Shown here: positions 7,849 through 16,001 of the stretch, piece by piece | Layout of the letters: every line of letters begins with the position of its first letter | Numbering within the stretch: position 1 is the first letter of the stretch | Origin: Bacteroidia bacterium | GTDB lineage: Bacteria; Bacteroidota; Bacteroidia; J057; JAIXKT01 | Length of the DNA stretch: 43,335 bases | Assembly (NCBI GenBank): GCA_026932145.1 | Contig: JAIXKT010000007.1 | Location: 14,177 to 57,511 of the forward strand | Direction: 5' to 3' | Notes under the pieces: generated by a model | Seen by the model: the letters and a program-made list of their open reading frames with translations, nothing else | Databases searched by the model: none | Told to the model about the DNA's origin: nothing | Program-made: the position numbers and the translations under genes

Positions 7849-8280
7849 ATGACAAACTCAAAACTTCAACCGAGCAAAAACTTTTGGGGATCATTTATAA
7901 GCCCCACTTTCGAGGATTTCTTTCAGGAATTACAATCCGGTATTTCAGAACGTAGCTTCGTTCCGCGTACCGATATTGTAGAAACCGAAGATGATTATCA
8001 GATTCATGTAGAAGCACCGGGGATAGCCAAAGATGCTTTCAAGGTGGATGTTGCAGACGGCAAATTAACCGTTCGTGGAGAACGCCAATTTGAAAAAAGT
8101 GAATCCGGCAAAACATGGCACCGCGTAGAAAGAAGCTACGGAAACTTCTCACGCAGTTTCTTCTTGCCTAAAAATATCAAAAAAGAAGCTATCCAAGCTA
8201 CTTATACAGATGGAATCTTAAAATTAGTTATCCCAAAAGACAATTCTAAACCGAACGCAGTTTCAATAGAGGTAAGCTAA
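7849..8280 (+). CDS. hsp20: Hsp20/alpha-crystallin small heat-shock protein
   Basis: A 143-residue small heat-shock protein, an ATP-independent holdase that keeps unfolding cytoplasmic proteins soluble. The alpha-crystallin domain runs from about residue 43 to the end: FVPRTDIVETEDDYQIHVEAPG, then DGKLTVRGER, the RSYGNFSRSFFLP strand and GILKLVIPK. The C-terminus ends PNAVSIEVS, containing the I/V-x-I/V oligomerisation motif. It is a single-gene unit with a strong hairpin terminator at 8301-8347. The HtrA protease gene follows, which suggests a stress-related neighbourhood, but the two are separated by that terminator. Confidence 0.95.
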   Translation: MTNSKLQPSKNFWGSFISPTFEDFFQELQSGISERSFVPRTDIVETEDDYQIHVEAPGIAKDAFKVDVADGKLTVRGERQFEKSESGKTWHRVERSYGNFSRSFFLPKNIKKEAIQATYTDGILKLVIPKDNSKPNAVSIEVS

Positions 8281-8300
8281 GAAACCCTAAAATACACATT

Positions 8301-8347
8301 TTTAACTGCCAAAAACCATTGTTAAATGCTGGTTTTTGGCAGTTAAA
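8301..8347 (+). terminator. Hairpin terminator of hsp20
   Basis: A perfect 18-base inverted repeat (8301-8318 pairing with 8330-8347) encloses an 11-base loop. The arms contain AAAAACC and GGTTTTT, and a T run (8351-8356) follows closely. The A/T symmetry means it might act in both directions. It begins 20 bases after the hsp20 stop. Confidence 0.75.
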
Positions 8348-8417
8348 CGATTTTTTGGGAAATAATACAACTTGTAATGCTGTATTTACGTTATATTCAC
8401 AACAAAAACTAACTACA

Positions 8418-9884
8418 ATGAATGATTATATTAAATTAGGTTTAGCAGCTTGTTTAGGGGGGCTTTTGTCCGTAGGTATTTATAAAGTTACTACTCCAGA
8501 ACATAATGCTACTCAGTCTTTTGCAGAACGTCAGCGGGTTGCCTTTACAGATTATTTTAAAGATGATAAACCCCAAAATTGCCTTGATTTTACCGCAGCT
8601 TCACAGTTAGCCACACCGGGCGTAGTTCACATTAAGTCAATATCTACGGGGGGAAAATCATCTAATAAAAATGGTTTTCCCGAAGATGATCTTTTTGCAC
8701 CATTTCGGGACTTTTTTGGAGATAATCTTCCACAGCAATATGGCCCACGTGAAGGAACCGGATCCGGCGTTATTTTATCCCAAGATGGCTACGTAGTTAC
8801 TAATAATCACGTAGTTGAAAATGCAAATACCATTCAGGTTACGCTACATGATAACCGAACTTATACCGCTACTGTTATTGGCACAGATCCCTCTACCGAT
8901 TTAGCACTTCTGAAAATTAAAGAAACCGGACTTCCATACCTTAATTTTGGGGATTCCGATAAACTCGTAGTAGGAGAGTGGGTTTTGGCCGTAGGGAATC
9001 CTTTCAACTTAACTTCCACAGTAACTGCCGGAATTGTTAGCGCAAAAGGGCGCAGTATCAATATTTTAAATGATAAATTCAGAATAGAATCCTTTATTCA
9101 GACGGATGCAGCTGTTAATCCGGGTAATAGCGGCGGAGCTTTGGTGAATACTCGTGGAGAATTAGTGGGTATTAACACCGCCATTGCAACCCAAACCGGC
9201 TCGTATTCCGGATATTCCTTTGCCGTACCTTCAGCAATTGTTCAAAAAGTAGTAGATGACTTATTAAAATACGGTGAAGTGCAGCGCGGATTCTTGGGGG
9301 TAGTTATCAAAGATGTAGATGCTAAAATCGCCGAAGATAGCCACTTAAAAGAAGCAGTTGGTGTTTTTATAGAAGGTGTAAACGCCAAAAGTGCAGCAGA
9401 AGTAGCCGGCCTTGAAGTCGGAGACGTTATCATCAAAATAGGAGATGTCCGTGTAAACCGTACCTCAGAACTACAAGAACAAATTGGAAAACACCGCCCC
9501 GGCGACAAAGTAAAAGTTACCTACATTCGAGCAGGAAAAGAAAAAACAACCGAAGTAGTGCTGAAAAACAAAGCTGGAAATACCGAAGTAGTCAAAAAAG
9601 GTGAATCCGAAGCAACAGCCATCTTAGGTGCTGAATTTAAAGAACCAACAGAAGATGTTCTCAAAAAATTAGACCTAAATGCCGGCATCCAAGTATCCAA
9701 ATTACTGAATGGCAAACTCAAAGAAGCTGGCGTTCGAGAAGGATTCGTAATCACCCACATAGACAAACGGGAAGTTTATACCATAAAGGATATTGAACGT
9801 GCCATCGCCGACAAATCCGGTGGAATACTCATCGAAGGAAAATACCCAACCGGAACCAAAGCCTATTATGCAATTGGGTTCTGA
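8418..9884 (+). CDS. degP: HtrA/Deg-family periplasmic serine protease with two PDZ domains
   Basis: A 488-residue Do-like protease/chaperone acting on misfolded envelope proteins. An N-terminal hydrophobic segment (residues about 6-21) exports or anchors it. The trypsin-like domain has the triad His131 (TNNHVV), Asp161 (STDLALLKI) and Ser238 (PGNSGGALV). The first PDZ domain (about 285-375) starts at the RGFLGVVI strand and the second is at about 400-485. I start at the ATG at 8418 because the in-frame alternative at 8319 lies in the loop of the hsp20 terminator and would put 33 non-signal residues before the membrane segment. A terminator-like hairpin follows at 9908-9942, inside the next gene. 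The 3' end overlaps pbpC by 17 bases. Confidence 0.93.
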   Translation: MNDYIKLGLAACLGGLLSVGIYKVTTPEHNATQSFAERQRVAFTDYFKDDKPQNCLDFTAASQLATPGVVHIKSISTGGKSSNKNGFPEDDLFAPFRDFFGDNLPQQYGPREGTGSGVILSQDGYVVTNNHVVENANTIQVTLHDNRTYTATVIGTDPSTDLALLKIKETGLPYLNFGDSDKLVVGEWVLAVGNPFNLTSTVTAGIVSAKGRSINILNDKFRIESFIQTDAAVNPGNSGGALVNTRGELVGINTAIATQTGSYSGYSFAVPSAIVQKVVDDLLKYGEVQRGFLGVVIKDVDAKIAEDSHLKEAVGVFIEGVNAKSAAEVAGLEVGDVIIKIGDVRVNRTSELQEQIGKHRPGDKVKVTYIRAGKEKTTEVVLKNKAGNTEVVKKGESEATAILGAEFKEPTEDVLKKLDLNAGIQVSKLLNGKLKEAGVREGFVITHIDKREVYTIKDIERAIADKSGGILIEGKYPTGTKAYYAIGF

Positions 9885-12234
9885 CGCTAAAAATCTTTTT
9901 ATACTAACCAAAAACCTGATAGCAACGCTATCAGGTTTTTGGCTTTTCAAACCAATCAAGTTTTTACTATTACTTGCTATTTTAGGCGGGCTTTTAACAC
10001 TTATTTTAAACTACTTCTTCCCCGTTACTTACGTTTTACCGTATTCACGCCTTGTTTATGACCAAGATTCTGTACTGCTTCATGCCTATCTGGCTTCCGA
10101 TGATAAATGGCGTTTTGAAACCAACCTAAATGATTTATCCCCAGAATATTTAAAAGCATTATTGACCAAAGAAGATAATTTTTATTATTATCACTTGGGT
10201 GTTAATCCTTTAGCAGTTTTTCGGGCAGCATTTCATAATGTGCTAAGACAAAAGCGAATATCGGGAGCATCTACCATAACGATGCAAGTTGTGCGTTTAT
10301 TAGAGCCACGTGAACGCACCTGGAAAAATAAAATTATCGAAATGGTGCGGGCTTGGCAGTTAGAATCAATACTTTCTAAAACCGAAATATTAAAATTATA
10401 CATCAACTTAATCCCCTTTGGGGGAAATATTGAAGGAATTCGGGCAGCCAGCTTTTTTTACTTTCAGAAACACCCCAAAAACCTAAGTGTAGCACAATGG
10501 TCATTATTTACAGTTATTCCCAACCAGCCTAATTCTTTACGGTTGGGGAAAAATAACCAACGAATTAAACAAGCGCGGGATTTCTGGATGCGTTATTACC
10601 ATCAAAAAGGCTACATCCTAAAAGCCGATTTAGTCAATGCCTTAGAAGAACCCATAGAATCTTCGGCCATAAAGCGCCCAACATTTGCACCACATATAGC
10701 CCGCTTTTTAACACAAAAAAATACAAATCAATCTATTATCTATTCTACAATACAGCTAAAAGAGCAACAAAAAGTGGAGCAAATTGTTTCAAACTATAAA
10801 CGCCGCATCAGCCCTTTGATTCAAAATATAGCAGTATGTGTGTTAAATAACCAAACGCACAAAATTACTGCTTATGTAGGTTCCCATAGTTTTTTTGACC
10901 AAAACACTCAGGGTCAAGTGGATGGCGTTAGAGCATATCGTTCGCCGGGTTCTACTTTAAAGCCGTTTCTATATAGCCTCGCAATAGACGAAGGATTAAT
11001 TACGCCTCAAAAAAAACTATTAGACTTACCTTTTGAATATTTAGGATACCAGCCGGAAAACTTTGATGGTAACGTTTCCGGCTGGGTAACTGTCTCCGAA
11101 GCCTTGTCCCGTTCTTTAAATCTACCTGCCATTCGGCTTCTGGTCAGTTATGGACAAAATCGTTTTATAGAAAAATTATCTGACTGGAAGTTTAGCAAAA
11201 TAGCCAAACGAAAAAAAGACTTAGGATTATCTATAATCTTAGGGGGGTGCGAAGTGTCCCTCTTAGAGTTAGTAACCGCATATAGTACTTTTGCAAATCA
11301 AGGCTATTATTATCCGGTGATTTTTACGTCATCAGATTCTTTGGAAAAACCGAAACAGATAATTAGTTCGGGGGCAGCTTGGATCATTGCGGAGATACTC
11401 AGTGATGCAGATAGGCCAGATTTACCGATTCAATTTGGGGCAAAAACATTACCCCGCATTGCATGGAAAACGGGAACAAGTTATGGTAGAAAAGATGCTT
11501 GGGCGGTTGGCTTTACCCCCCAAATGACTGTTGGTGTTTGGCTTGGGAATTTTACCGGAGAAGGAATCGCTGATTTACAGGGAAATAGAACAGCAACGCC
11601 GCTGCTATTTGACCTCTTGATAGCACTCTCCCAACAAACATCAGGCGGCTGGTTCATCAAACCTGATGCCGTTATTTCCCAAAAAGTCTGTGCATTATCC
11701 GGCGAATCTATTAGTAATAAATGTAAAAGTTTCAAAACAACTTGGATGCTGGATAATGCTATCTCTACCAGTATTTGTCAATATGAACAGATTTTTAGGG
11801 TTTCAACAAATAGACAAATCCGCTATTGTAATGCCTGCTGTCCTACGCAGAATTTTATTTGGGATACAATTACAACTTACCCGCCGGAGCTAAATTCATG
11901 GTTATTAAGCCAGAATTTAACTATACCCAAAATTCCGATTCATAATCCTTTGTGTGGTAATATTGTAACTGAATCACCCCCAAAAATAGTTTCTCCGGCG
12001 GATAGAACTGTTTACACTGCTTTGTTTCAAGAAACGATTCAGCTAAAGGTTGCTGCGGCTCCTAAATCTACAGCAAATACGTATTTTTGGTATCTGAATA
12101 ACTTGTTTATTCGCCAAGCAGCAAGCCATGAAGAGTTTTTTATTTCTCCGCCGGTAGGTTCAAATACACTCACTTGTCAAGATGAGTTGGGAAATACAAC
12201 AACGGTTCAGTTTGAGGTAAAGGCTATAAAGTGA
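9868..12234 (+). CDS. pbpC: Penicillin-binding protein 1C (bifunctional transglycosylase/transpeptidase)
   Basis: A 788-residue class A penicillin-binding protein of the PbpC type, making peptidoglycan at the outer face of the inner membrane. A single membrane segment lies at about 30-50. The glycosyltransferase 51 domain has catalytic Glu102 (TKEDNFYYYHLG) and the block SGASTITMQ. The transpeptidase domain has Ser362 in SPGSTLKPF, the SRSLN motif and KTGTSYGRKDAW. A cysteine-containing linker leads to a C-terminal BiPBP_C domain ending GNTTTVQFEV. I chose the ATG at 9868; a TTG at 9793 would add residues that overlap the HtrA coding region. The start overlaps htrA by 17 bases and the early codons contain a strong terminator-like hairpin (9908-9942). 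Confidence 0.93.
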   Translation: MQLGSDAKNLFILTKNLIATLSGFWLFKPIKFLLLLAILGGLLTLILNYFFPVTYVLPYSRLVYDQDSVLLHAYLASDDKWRFETNLNDLSPEYLKALLTKEDNFYYYHLGVNPLAVFRAAFHNVLRQKRISGASTITMQVVRLLEPRERTWKNKIIEMVRAWQLESILSKTEILKLYINLIPFGGNIEGIRAASFFYFQKHPKNLSVAQWSLFTVIPNQPNSLRLGKNNQRIKQARDFWMRYYHQKGYILKADLVNALEEPIESSAIKRPTFAPHIARFLTQKNTNQSIIYSTIQLKEQQKVEQIVSNYKRRISPLIQNIAVCVLNNQTHKITAYVGSHSFFDQNTQGQVDGVRAYRSPGSTLKPFLYSLAIDEGLITPQKKLLDLPFEYLGYQPENFDGNVSGWVTVSEALSRSLNLPAIRLLVSYGQNRFIEKLSDWKFSKIAKRKKDLGLSIILGGCEVSLLELVTAYSTFANQGYYYPVIFTSSDSLEKPKQIISSGAAWIIAEILSDADRPDLPIQFGAKTLPRIAWKTGTSYGRKDAWAVGFTPQMTVGVWLGNFTGEGIADLQGNRTATPLLFDLLIALSQQTSGGWFIKPDAVISQKVCALSGESISNKCKSFKTTWMLDNAISTSICQYEQIFRVSTNRQIRYCNACCPTQNFIWDTITTYPPELNSWLLSQNLTIPKIPIHNPLCGNIVTESPPKIVSPADRTVYTALFQETIQLKVAAAPKSTANTYFWYLNNLFIRQAASHEEFFISPPVGSNTLTCQDELGNTTTVQFEVKAIK
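9908..9942 (+). terminator. Terminator-like hairpin after htrA, inside the pbpC reading frame
   Basis: CCAAAAACCTGATAGC (9908-9923) pairs perfectly with 9927-9942 around a three-base AAC loop. The nine-base core stem is followed directly by TTTTT and, shortly after, CTTTTC. It starts 23 bases after the htrA stop, where a terminator is expected, yet it is within codons 14-25 of pbpC. It may terminate or attenuate transcription into pbpC. Confidence 0.7.
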
Positions 12235-12280: not shown

Positions 12281-13495
12281 TTATCTTTTGGTCAGTTTGA
12301 TACTTAGTTCGTCATAATTACCTTTATAGATGTCTAACTCAACGTCCACGACATCTTCAAAGCCTTCGCAGGTTGCTCGGAAGAGATAATTTCCGGGTGT
12401 TATGGACGGGAACATGGTAAAAGAGCCGTCTATTCCGGATTTTGCGCCGGCTATATATTCCCATTTTCCGGATTTCATAATTCCTAATCCAACGTAAGCT
12501 CCTGAAATTGGTTTTCCGGAGTCTGAGTTTTTCACTAACCCGGTTACAAATACGGGGTCTTTGGATTTGGGGGCATTGGGCGTTTCTTTTTCTTTGGATA
12601 ATCCTGGCCCCTTATCGGTTCCCCCGAGGGAGAGTCCGCCTTTTCCGCCAGCCATATCCATTGTGCTGTTAGTCCGTGGAGGCACCCGCTTAGTAGCTTG
12701 ATACGCCTGAAAGCTAAACGTCAAGTCAGCAGGTTTCAAAATACCGATAGCTGTTCTAATGTCTTTGGCAATGTAGTACATATTGTTTATGCCTCCGATT
12801 AAGCCAATAAGTGTTTGCGGATAGTATCTGGTTGCTAATCCGATAACTTTGCCATTTTTGTCAATAACGGGGCCGCCGCTATTGCCAGGGGTAATTCTGG
12901 CATCAGTTATCACAAAGCCGGGTTTAAATCCAGAAACAATACCTTTGGTTACAAACAGGGGTGCATTAAAAACGGCCGTAATACCTCTGTCTATTTCTCC
13001 TTGGTCTGGGTATCCTAATACAAATAAGTCATTACCGGTTTTTAGTGCATCAGAGTTGCCGATTTGTATTGGAGAGAATTTTCGTGTAACGGGTTTACCA
13101 TCAGCAGTGCTAACAATACGCAGATAAGCTCCGTCAAAGTCTTCTTCTTTACTGTAATATTCTATTTTACACAAATACAACTCATAATCAGATGGGGAAG
13201 ATATTTTCCCGTTTTTGCGCATCACTTGGGCATAAATTTTTCCATAGCTCTCGTCTTCATCGCCCCATTCACTGCTCCCTACAACGTGGTGGTTCGTAAA
13301 TATAGCTCCGTCACTGGTTACAATAAACCCGGTACCACGACTTAAAGTGTTCTTTATTGAATCTACAATAACGATTTTAACAACCGAAGAATAATATTTT
13401 TCTATAATCTGCTCTAAGCTAAGTTGAGCATGCAATACAACCGGTGATAATAACTGTATAAAACTCAGTATGATAAATAGCCTTCTATAAGTCAT
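12281..13495 (-). CDS. Secreted trypsin-like serine protease with carboxypeptidase-regulatory-like C-terminal domain
   Basis: A 404-residue exported protease. Residues 1-23 form a signal peptide ending LHA. The trypsin-like domain carries a complete apparent triad: His70 (FTNHHVV), Asp121 (EDFDGAYLRI) and Ser206 (ITPGNSGGPV). There are no PDZ domains. A linker rich in Gly, Lys and Pro (about 270-315) leads to a beta-sandwich of the carboxypeptidase-regulatory-like type (VFVTGLVKNSDSGKPISGAYV onward), a frequent binding domain in Bacteroidota surface proteins. It is the last gene of a three-gene unit with the membrane protein genes at 13509 and 14059 (gaps of 13 and 4 bases). Cleavage target is unknown; a regulated envelope-signalling or processing role is inference. 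Confidence 0.85.
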   Translation of the reverse strand: MTYRRLFIILSFIQLLSPVVLHAQLSLEQIIEKYYSSVVKIVIVDSIKNTLSRGTGFIVTSDGAIFTNHHVVGSSEWGDEDESYGKIYAQVMRKNGKISSPSDYELYLCKIEYYSKEEDFDGAYLRIVSTADGKPVTRKFSPIQIGNSDALKTGNDLFVLGYPDQGEIDRGITAVFNAPLFVTKGIVSGFKPGFVITDARITPGNSGGPVIDKNGKVIGLATRYYPQTLIGLIGGINNMYYIAKDIRTAIGILKPADLTFSFQAYQATKRVPPRTNSTMDMAGGKGGLSLGGTDKGPGLSKEKETPNAPKSKDPVFVTGLVKNSDSGKPISGAYVGLGIMKSGKWEYIAGAKSGIDGSFTMFPSITPGNYLFRATCEGFEDVVDVELDIYKGNYDELSIKLTKR

Positions 13496-13508
13496 TGCGT
13501 AGAAAAAA

Positions 13509-14054
13509 TTAAAAAGAGATAGTATTTGAAATGAGCGTTAAATCGGTCAAAAAATTAGTGTGTTTATCGGCAGGTGCAATCAATGAAAGAACTACCTGCT
13601 TTCCGGATTGCTCGATAATCCAGTCGGTTCCCAAAAAAACGGTTGGTACTTGGGTGGGGTTTGCGTGTTTATCTATAAAGGAAAAATCAATTCGGGTGGA
13701 TTTTTCAAACTTACCTACTTTGGTTTGGCTAACTTTCATGGGTTTGTAATCCGAAAATACTTGGGAATTATGGATATTTTGGATAAAATCAGGGGCAAAA
13801 GTAGTATTTGAGCCGGCAGGGCTTACCACAACGTTGATTCGTACTTCGGGATCCCGTTTCAACATAAGAGAAATAGAATCTGCTCTATCTTCGGAAAGCA
13901 CAGTCCAAGTACCATAGTATTTGAAAAGGGTTTTTTCTTTAGCAAAATCTCTTTTACTTAAAGAAGCCTGATTTGAAAAATAGCCAATCAATAACATTAT
14001 GGCTGCCAACCCAACCACACCATAACTGACTGTTTTAAATAATTCTTTTATCAT
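13509..14054 (-). CDS. Membrane-anchored protein of unknown function
   Basis: I do not recognise this 181-residue protein. One membrane segment (residues about 10-27, VSYGVVGLAAIMLLIGYF) is followed by an extracytoplasmic domain of about 150 residues. That domain starts FKYYGTWTVLSEDRADSI and has alternating strands and a central KVGKFEKSTRIDFSF stretch. The overall pattern of a single N-terminal anchor and a small alpha/beta domain recalls PsbP- or Mog1-like folds, but I see no motif that supports either firmly. It lies between the PrsW-like gene (4 bases upstream) and the trypsin-like protease gene (13 bases downstream), so it is probably made with both and may be a substrate, inhibitor or adaptor of the protease. 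Confidence 0.75.
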   Translation of the reverse strand: MIKELFKTVSYGVVGLAAIMLLIGYFSNQASLSKRDFAKEKTLFKYYGTWTVLSEDRADSISLMLKRDPEVRINVVVSPAGSNTTFAPDFIQNIHNSQVFSDYKPMKVSQTKVGKFEKSTRIDFSFIDKHANPTQVPTVFLGTDWIIEQSGKQVVLSLIAPADKHTNFLTDLTLISNTISF

Positions 14055-14058
14055 AGGT

Positions 14059-14880
14059 CTATGTTCTGAAAGGGGATTTTTCTACTGTTGTTTTTAATAT
14101 AATGAATAAAAATGTGAATACCGAAACTACTAAAATCGTAGTGAATATCATGATATTCCATGCGTTATAGTCAATACCATGTAGTTTATTAGCAATGAAA
14201 ACCACAGATCCATTTAGGATGCAACTTACTAAGAACCCGATAGATAGGGTGCGTTCTGGATTTTGGGAGTTGAATTTTGCTTGACTGAAAAAGTAACCCA
14301 TTACACCGGAAAAAGCGGCTGAAATTAAGTAAAACTCAATGATTCTGATTGGAACAATATCCATATTCAATGATTCTAAGGAGTTTAGATACAGAAAGTT
14401 ATACATTGCGGCAAAGCCCAAACCGGTAGCTGCTCCATAGATAATGCCGTCTGCCGGCTCATTAAATTCTTTATGGTTGTATATTACGTGTTTTAACACT
14501 AAAAACTTTGTGAACTCCTGACAAACAGCTAATACACAAACGGCATTGATCCAAACACTTAGATTAGAGCGGTCTAAAAGTTCTGATTCTTTTTTAAAAA
14601 ATTGCTCTAATGGGTAGGCAAAGCCGCTTGCCGCAATAGCCGATAAAATAAAAACACCTATCAAAAGTTTCAATGGCTCTTTTTCATGCTCATCTTGATA
14701 ATAAAAAAAGATTAACCACAAAACGCCCGGCAATACACTAAAGAAAAACGAAAATATAATCCGAAATGGTACATTAGAAAACTCTAATATAACGTCCTTT
14801 AATGCCAAAGAAGTTAAGCCACCCAGTAAAATTAATACTAAAATTCCTAAGTAGCCTCGCTGTCCGATGAATTTTAACAT
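14059..14880 (-). CDS. PrsW-family membrane protein lacking most expected catalytic residues
   Basis: A 273-residue polytopic membrane protein with about eight hydrophobic segments. It has the landmarks of PrsW glutamic-type intramembrane proteases: YYQDEHEKEPL (61-70), CQEFTKFL (120-127), EPADGIIYGAATGLGFA (141-157) and SGVMGYFFSQAKF (191-203). PrsW cleaves the anti-sigma factor RsiW in Bacillus. Here most residues normally required appear replaced: the first Glu of EExxK is Gln121, the Glu of the EN motif is Tyr160, and the conserved His positions are Ser187 and Asn223. It therefore looks like a non-proteolytic relative. It is the first gene of the unit with 13509 and 12281, with a promoter at 14908-14939. 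Confidence 0.8.
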   Translation of the reverse strand: MLKFIGQRGYLGILVLILLGGLTSLALKDVILEFSNVPFRIIFSFFFSVLPGVLWLIFFYYQDEHEKEPLKLLIGVFILSAIAASGFAYPLEQFFKKESELLDRSNLSVWINAVCVLAVCQEFTKFLVLKHVIYNHKEFNEPADGIIYGAATGLGFAAMYNFLYLNSLESLNMDIVPIRIIEFYLISAAFSGVMGYFFSQAKFNSQNPERTLSIGFLVSCILNGSVVFIANKLHGIDYNAWNIMIFTTILVVSVFTFLFIILKTTVEKSPFRT

Positions 14881-14907: not shown

Positions 14908-14939
14908 CAAATTTACAAGCAAGTTTCTTTAAAATCAAA
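14908..14939 (-). promoter_or_regulatory. Promoter of the PrsW-like/trypsin-like protease unit
   Basis: On the minus strand a TTTG (14936-14939) and a TAAATTTG (14908-14915) are separated by 20 bases. This matches the Bacteroidota TTTG-N19/20-TAnnTTTG promoter. The ATG follows 27 bases after the -7 box. Confidence 0.6.
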
Positions 14940-15068: not shown

Positions 15069-16001
15069 TTATTCAGCTACAGGTTCTTCTATCAAATTGA
15101 TTTCAATTGCTACTTCTTGGCCTTTTTCATTTAAAGCTATTTTAAATTGAATGGTATCATTTTGCAGTAAGTCATTAAAATCAACATTTTCTACGCTAGA
15201 ATGATGGAAATATAGGTTATTAGGTGCGTATTTTATGAATCCATAGCCATTATGCAAGGATAGTATTTGGCTTGTTTTAAATTCATTGGATAGTAGTGTT
15301 GCTTGTCTGGTTATTTCGCGTTTGCGTTCTCGGTTGGCAGGCACAAATAAGCGTTCAAGGATAGGGTCATTATTTTTAAGGCCATTTTCGATTATGTCAT
15401 GCATAGCGATAGGGTAGCTTACCTCTTGCAGCAGCTCGTGCGATGTTCTGGTTGCCCTAAGTACTTCATTTTCATCTTTATATTCAAAGTCCCAAGAGAT
15501 AATCATAACCCGTGTGCTGAGTGTATTTAGTTTCCGAATTAAGGGCACATAATCACCATCAGAAGCAAGTAAGACTAAGATGTCAAATTTCTTGTAAAGT
15601 GTTAATTCAAAGGCTTCTAAAGCCAACCAAACGTCTATGCTTTTTTCCTGCCGAAAATTAAAACCGGCGTTTTTGATGGGTAAATAATGTGTAACGATTC
15701 CTTCGGACATCAAAATATCATCAAAAACACGGTCATAATATAATTGATTGTTTTTTTGTGAAGTATCTTTGGCATTTAACCTACTCTTAAAGTAGTGAGC
15801 ATCAACTATATGGCAAAATTGTTCCGTTGTATTTTCTCGTAAGGCTATTTGGTTTTTGATAAACCCATGTAAGCCTGAAATGCTGATTCTACTTTTTGAG
15901 GGATGGAAATAATAATAATAATTGCTAACATGATTGAAGTAGTTTCCATCATAAAACACGCCAATTCGGGTGAGATTTTTTGAGTTTGAGAGATTTAGCA
16001 T
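15069..16001 (-). CDS. NYN-domain (LabA/DUF88-like) nuclease fused to a cold-shock-like domain
   Basis: A 310-residue cytoplasmic protein. Residues about 11-190 form a NYN domain, a PIN-like fold of metal-dependent RNases: IGVFYDGNYF (Asp18), SIDVWLALEAFEL (Asp123) and LLASDGDYVPLIRKL (Asp148, Asp150), giving the acidic cluster expected of an active site. Residues about 247-302 look like a cold-shock/OB domain: GYGFIKY matches the RNP1-type and NLYFHHSSV the RNP2-type motif of cold-shock proteins. A linker of charged residues (210-245) joins them. The combination suggests an RNase that uses its own single-strand nucleic-acid-binding domain. The gene stands alone and has a near-palindrome (16038-16062) upstream. 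The RNA target is unknown. Confidence 0.82.
   Translation of the reverse strand: MLNLSNSKNLTRIGVFYDGNYFNHVSNYYYYFHPSKSRISISGLHGFIKNQIALRENTTEQFCHIVDAHYFKSRLNAKDTSQKNNQLYYDRVFDDILMSEGIVTHYLPIKNAGFNFRQEKSIDVWLALEAFELTLYKKFDILVLLASDGDYVPLIRKLNTLSTRVMIISWDFEYKDENEVLRATRTSHELLQEVSYPIAMHDIIENGLKNNDPILERLFVPANRERKREITRQATLLSNEFKTSQILSLHNGYGFIKYAPNNLYFHHSSVENVDFNDLLQNDTIQFKIALNEKGQEVAIEINLIEEPVAE

Follow-up and report, generated by a model that had tools for sequence, protein, structure and literature searches.

ORF3, a membrane protein from a poorly known Bacteroidota lineage, belongs to the PrsW family but has lost its catalytic residues and is very probably dead as a PrsW protease. The gene lies in a stretch of 43,335 nt (hereafter the window) from a Bacteroidia bacterium (GTDB J057; JAIXKT01), assembly GCA_026932145.1, contig JAIXKT010000007.1, positions 14,177–57,511. 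Among the open reading frames of the window, ORF3, ORF2, and ORF1 are consecutive and all on the minus strand (Table 1). A first-pass annotation of the sequence had placed these genes correctly and had described ORF3 as a PrsW-like protein with most catalytic residues changed. A loss of catalysis with retention of the family fold is strongly supported. The four substitutions on which it was based, Q121 of QEFTK, Y160 of YN, S187, and N223, are all correct by alignment, and they go beyond what chance would give, as shown below.

Table 1. Positions of genes, motif codons, and a candidate promoter in the window.
Feature	Position	Strand	Basis
ORF3, PrsW-family membrane protein without catalytic residues, 273 aa, nine predicted helices	14059..14880	-	PF13367 E 1.4e-23; residue census; AlphaFold2 pLDDT 87.2
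Q121 codon of ORF3, first position of EExxK	14518..14520	-	Glu in 152/152 listed class homologues
E122 codon of ORF3, second Glu of EExxK, retained	14515..14517	-	alignment
Y160 codon of ORF3, Glu position of the EN motif	14401..14403	-	Glu in 152/152 listed class homologues
S187 codon of ORF3, first His position	14320..14322	-	His in 151/152 listed class homologues
N223 codon of ORF3, His of HGxYD	14212..14214	-	His in 152/152 listed class homologues
ORF2, 181 aa, one N-terminal transmembrane helix (residues ~5–27)	13509..14054	-	hydropathy, coding-like codon use; without Pfam/NCBIfam match
ORF1, 404 aa, secreted trypsin-like serine protease with C-terminal CarboxypepD_reg-like domain	12281..13495	-	Trypsin_2 E 1.4e-23
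Catalytic S206 codon of ORF1 (GNSGGP)	12878..12880	-	alignment
Possible Bacteroidota-type promoter (TTTG, 20 bases, TAAATTTG)	14908..14939	-	position ~28 bases before the ORF3 start codon

Catalytic residues of ORF3

ORF3 is the sole PF13367 protein of its genome. Its profile score of 83.9 bits (E 1.4e-23) is over the cut-off of 23.5, and its score against the equivalog model NF033739, 97.2 bits, is below the cut-off of 225. PrsW is the site-1 protease of RsiW in Bacillus subtilis. ORF3 is related in sequence to this family (PF13367, NF033739) over residues 48–248, with the helices and structural residues kept, but the leading Glu of EExxK, the EN Glu, both His residues, and the final Asp are missing from it. 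The EExxK motif reads QEFTK, in which the first Glu is absent and E122 and K125 are retained, and the EN motif reads YN, in which the Glu is absent and N161 is retained. In HGxYD, the Tyr and Asp are also lost (V226 and V227), besides N223. Q121, Y160, S187, and N223 thus occupy the positions of the family Glu, Glu, His, and His, respectively. A His in TMH5 and an HxxxD motif in TMH6 are given as defining features of PrsW (PMC4602095); both are absent from ORF3, which has S187, N223, and V227 instead. The family Gly at position 80 is absent as well. The four His residues of ORF3 (65, 131, 136, and 234) all lie outside the motifs. Relocated catalytic residues were considered and rejected: the alignment is unambiguous at QEFTK, MYNFLY, SAAFSG, and LNGS, and it places no catalytic Glu or His elsewhere in the protein.

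These positions are nearly invariant in other genomes. A first alignment comprised 22 relatives of ORF3 from the same order and class. The class census was then made from the listed PF13367 matches, with 143 of the 395 class genomes having one; it comprises 152 complete rows among the 155 non-window rows of the matches listed, and two broken loci were left out. Among these matches, both Glu and the Lys of EExxK, the EN Glu, and the second His each occur in all 152 rows, and the only deviation at the four positions changed in ORF3 is a single Tyr in the column of the first His. All catalytic residues are likewise kept in the 80 of 80 named homologues from GTDB genomes, a sample collected with two scan patterns, one of which included the first His. 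A first scan of the named genomes with ORF3 alone gave no match. The phylum check covered 60 listed places outside the class set, taken lowest-scoring first, and three loci from a search. Of these 63, 61 were aligned automatically; both Glu of EExxK, the Glu of EN, and the last His are present in them without exception (61/61), and His187 in 58/61. The three loci without an aligned His187 do have a His in this stretch, shifted out of register, and the two that were not aligned automatically look intact by eye.

The pattern of loss is selective. Among the matches listed for the class set, 12 columns are conserved at a level of at least 95%; ORF3 loses exactly four of them, all catalytic, and keeps the other eight (E122, K125, D144, G155, F156, N161, Y164, and R179). 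Over these columns, 137 of the 153 listed rows show no loss, 13 show one, two show two, and only ORF3 shows four. The overall identity of ORF3 to its homologues is ~18–33%. Such retention of eight positions at low identity, alongside the loss of both His residues and of two of the three Glu, is not the pattern of random decay. A loss targeted at catalysis, in a protein that is otherwise maintained, is strongly supported, and ORF3 is probably both maintained and functional.

The two loci left out of the class census hold PrsW genes that look broken: L155 (genome G148) is split by an internal stop and so makes up two rows, and L197 (genome G151) is truncated, with its gene in two pieces.

Gene neighbourhood of ORF3

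The intergenic gaps are 4 bases between ORF3 and ORF2 and 13 bases between ORF2 and ORF1, and this spacing suggests that the three genes lie on a common transcript. Codon use is coding-like in all three: the in-frame value is 0.26–0.31 bits per codon, and the remaining frames give negative values. ORF3 is separated by 188 bases from the next upstream gene, which encodes an NYN and cold-shock-domain protein, and a penicillin-binding protein 1C-like gene ending at 12234 meets the cluster head-on, tail to tail with ORF1. The putative promoter upstream of ORF3 follows the Bacteroidota-type promoter motif. This motif has 2 matches in the window versus 2.5 expected by chance; position alone speaks for the match upstream of ORF3, which was noticed after the fact and is only suggestive. 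Scans for sigma-70 promoters and terminators gave chance levels only, and no sigma or anti-sigma family was found among the scanned neighbours of ORF3.

Two further features of the surroundings are worth recording. The upstream gene at 15069–16001 fuses an NYN domain to a cold-shock domain and is kept at 41–60% identity in several genomes of the order. On the plus strand, 7849–12234 encodes in a row an Hsp20, a DegP/HtrA-type protease with PDZ domains, and the penicillin-binding protein 1C-like protein, so that two distinct trypsin-like proteases (the DegP/HtrA-type enzyme and ORF1) occur within ~5 kb.

ORF1 has a signal peptide-like N-terminus followed by a Trypsin_2 domain (E 1.4e-23). Its catalytic triad is intact, as the first-pass annotation had stated; it consists of H70, D121, and S206, and the same residues are found in four aligned homologues. 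The C-terminal stretch matches CarboxypepD_reg with an E value of 3.4e-7 and 31.0 bits, just below the cut-off of 32.3. Assignment of ORF1 to HtrA/DegP was rejected, as there is no PDZ match and the best score against an HtrA model is 55.8 bits versus a cut-off of 416. Ten of the 394 other class genomes contain relatives of the protease part (E 1e-12 or better). These relatives are mostly frames of ~570–640 aa, and those that were read differ from ORF1 in the C-terminal part. Four such relatives of ~600 aa (L359, L360, L367, and L368) occur as close same-contig pairs in genomes G204 and G145, which suggests tandem copies.

ORF2 consists of its N-terminal helix and a domain of ~150 aa, which probably lies outside the cytoplasm, in the periplasm. 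No family match was found in Pfam or NCBIfam, no match among solved structures (best E 0.083), no relative on plasmids, and no believable relative in the 394 other class genomes (best E 8.2e-4). The weak class matches were taken as chance; the four examined are aspartate-kinase-like and other unrelated proteins. A single-sequence model of ORF2 has a pLDDT of 42 and is not usable. A likeness of ORF2 to PsbP/Mog1-like domains is no more than an impression.

The first-pass annotation had proposed a search for the same three-gene order in other Bacteroidota, and the order was not found at the loci examined. No ORF1-like gene, ORF2-like gene, or GNSGG-type protease motif was found at 100 PrsW loci (20 near relatives and 80 named records), and no PrsW-like or ORF2-like gene was found near ORF1 homologues at 12 loci with short flanks. 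Loci of the order likewise gave no sign that the cluster is syntenic with the adjacent NYN and YicC genes, a weak test given that the loci carry only ~1.5 kb of flank. The first-pass annotation had named homologous loci with the three genes apart as a refutation of its idea; the PrsW and ORF1 homologues are indeed found apart, and this refutes the idea only weakly. So far, the ORF3-ORF2-ORF1 arrangement is unique among the genomes examined. As the compared loci hold an intact PrsW or differently built proteases, the result shows that the arrangement is peculiar to the source lineage, not that it is meaningless. The link among ORF1, ORF2, and ORF3 consists solely of their adjacency in one genome.

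Fold of ORF3 and comparison with non-cutting relatives

The AlphaFold2 model of ORF3, computed from an alignment of 48 sequences, has a mean pLDDT of 87.2 and a pTM of 0.85 and contains nine helices. An N-terminal extension of ~35–45 residues (14778–14880) contributes one or two additional hydrophobic segments, which are absent from most aligned PrsW relatives, and the confidence of the model is low in this part.

Sequence searches found no relative of ORF3 in the PDB, and a plain Foldseek search of the model against the PDB gave nothing at an E value of 0.001 or below. The structural matches described here come from a second comparison, VIA-align 2. The best is APH-1 of human γ-secretase (5a63_C), with a Z of 16.3 over 201 residues and an rmsd of 4.2. 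This value exceeds the helical-bundle background and indicates a membrane-core fold common to ORF3 and APH-1. The second match is 7tm3_6, a 224-residue subunit of the multipass translocon (Z 16.2). From its length of 224 aa, chain 6 of 7tm3 is probably TMEM147. Two APH-1B entries follow (Z 15.2 and 14.9), and there is then a gap down to 9.2. SpdC from the SagB–SpdC complex (6u0o_A) is a moderate match with a Z of 8.3, which is within the range of the helical-bundle background. PrsW, CAAX-type proteases, and APH-1 are known to be related (PMC4602095, PMC6588880). An APH-1-like fold is common to the superfamily as a whole, and the match is therefore by itself no proof of a scaffold function for ORF3.

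The first-pass annotation had likened ORF3 to iRhoms, and the comparison is apt in kind: iRhoms are inactive relatives of intramembrane proteases that bind transmembrane clients. They belong to the Rhomboid family, whose fold is unrelated to that of PrsW. Nearer precedents exist in the superfamily of ORF3 itself, namely APH-1, TMEM147, SpdC, and Abx1.

APH-1 is a non-catalytic subunit of human γ-secretase, and ORF3 is predicted to be non-catalytic. A common origin of APH-1 and the PrsW/CAAX-type proteases, with catalysis lost in APH-1, has been proposed (Pei et al. 2011, cited in PMC4602095 and PMC6588880). Its first motif is QExxR, as compared with EExxxR in the proteases (PMC6588880). The change from Glu to Gln in this motif is common to APH-1 and ORF3, which has Lys in place of Arg (QEFTK). 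The likeness specific to APH-1 lies in this motif (QExxK resembling QExxR) and not in the fold. Two differences are evident, however. APH-1 keeps two conserved His, whereas ORF3 has S187 and N223 at the PrsW His positions, and the client of APH-1 is nicastrin, whereas ORF2 is similar to no known protein. The Nicalin–TMEM147 pair has been modelled on nicastrin–APH-1 (PMC7505659); unlike ORF3, TMEM147 is eukaryotic and part of the translocon.

Two bacterial members of the CAAX-protease-like superfamily, SpdC and Abx1, function through binding, as proposed here for ORF3. SpdC of Staphylococcus aureus is reported to be a scaffold for the membrane-associated hydrolase SagB (PMC10581084) and to bind the kinase WalK (PMC5854430). 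Abx1 of Streptococcus agalactiae regulates the kinase CovS by binding, and its function survives alanine at all four catalytic positions (PMC3578759). Both belong to the Abi (PF02517) branch, whereas ORF3 belongs to the PrsW branch, and Abx1 keeps its catalytic residues though they are dispensable, whereas ORF3 has lost them. Members of the superfamily that do not cut work through the binding of membrane helices.

Possible role of ORF3

Our preferred reading, to which we would give an even chance, is that ORF3 is a pseudoprotease that acts as a scaffold, with ORF2 as the likeliest partner and ORF1 as the effector. ORF3 would keep the family fold and structural residues but be unable to cut, and it would bind the transmembrane segments of partner proteins, as do APH-1, TMEM147, and SpdC. 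The first candidate client would be the adjoining single-pass ORF2, whose outer domain might bring ORF1 to the membrane, restrain it, or present a client to it. The lost catalytic residues, the retained fold signature, the APH-1-like predicted fold, and the close gene spacing are results of the analysis; the production of ORF3, its action as a scaffold, and its partnership with ORF2 and ORF1 are inferences. A partnership with ORF2 and/or ORF1, suggested by analogy with APH-1, SpdC, and Abx1 and by adjacency, is in our estimate somewhat short of evenly balanced. A complex of all three proteins is plausible by the same analogy and otherwise by adjacency in one genome. The locus might even be a bacterial counterpart of APH-1/nicastrin of independent origin within PrsW, in which a single-pass receptor-like protein is held in the membrane by a dead PrsW and thereby coupled to a dedicated periplasmic serine protease, all within one operon, but we put this forward tentatively and consider it rather unlikely.

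The chief alternative retains the loss of catalysis and the usefulness of ORF3 and dissociates it from its neighbours: ORF3 may have nothing to do with ORF1 and ORF2 beyond a shared operon. The absence of the gene order from the other genomes examined agrees with this, as does the finding that SpdC and Abx1 each have a histidine kinase as a known partner (PMC5854430, PMC3578759). The tight gene spacing argues against it, however, and the one-helix form of ORF2, as judged by hydropathy, resembles the known clients of such scaffolds; we regard unrelated neighbours as a rather unlikely explanation. A decaying gene is less likely still. Under this explanation, PrsW has become useless in the lineage and ORF3 is on its way out. 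In its favour, a PF13367 match is present in 15 of the 22 genomes of the order, source genome included, and missing from 7, the class contains the two broken PrsW genes described above, and the ORF3 branch is long (3.02 changes per column versus a median of 0.31, with an unsure tree placement). Yet ORF3 is an uninterrupted frame of 273 codons whose codon use is normal, all eight non-catalytic columns of at least 95% conservation are kept, and the model folds with high confidence. The source genome is the only representative of its family-level group in the data examined; thus, selection is not measurable with close relatives. This point and the long branch also tell against the preferred reading.

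An enzyme with an altered active site, built from E122, K125, Y160, N161, or other polar residues, seems very improbable. The pocket would stay polar, since E122, K125, N161, and R179 are kept, and esterase activity has been reported for DidK, a relative of CAAX proteases with D203 in place of Glu as the first residue (PMC10811503). However, ORF3 has neither of the two His, only one of the three Glu, and no His at any motif, so that neither mechanism proposed for the family (metal or glutamate) has its residues.

Inactive relatives within the superfamily are already known, and a search of the open literature yielded no described inactive bacterial PrsW. A bacterial PrsW that has lost catalysis independently and with the same change in the first motif would be a natural replay of the APH-1 step. 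It would also provide a small testable system and show that the PrsW fold has uses other than cutting. A profile match alone is insufficient for naming a protein a "PrsW family protease". Many PrsW domains in the class and phylum are located in much longer open frames, of up to ~740 aa, and fused forms seem to be common.
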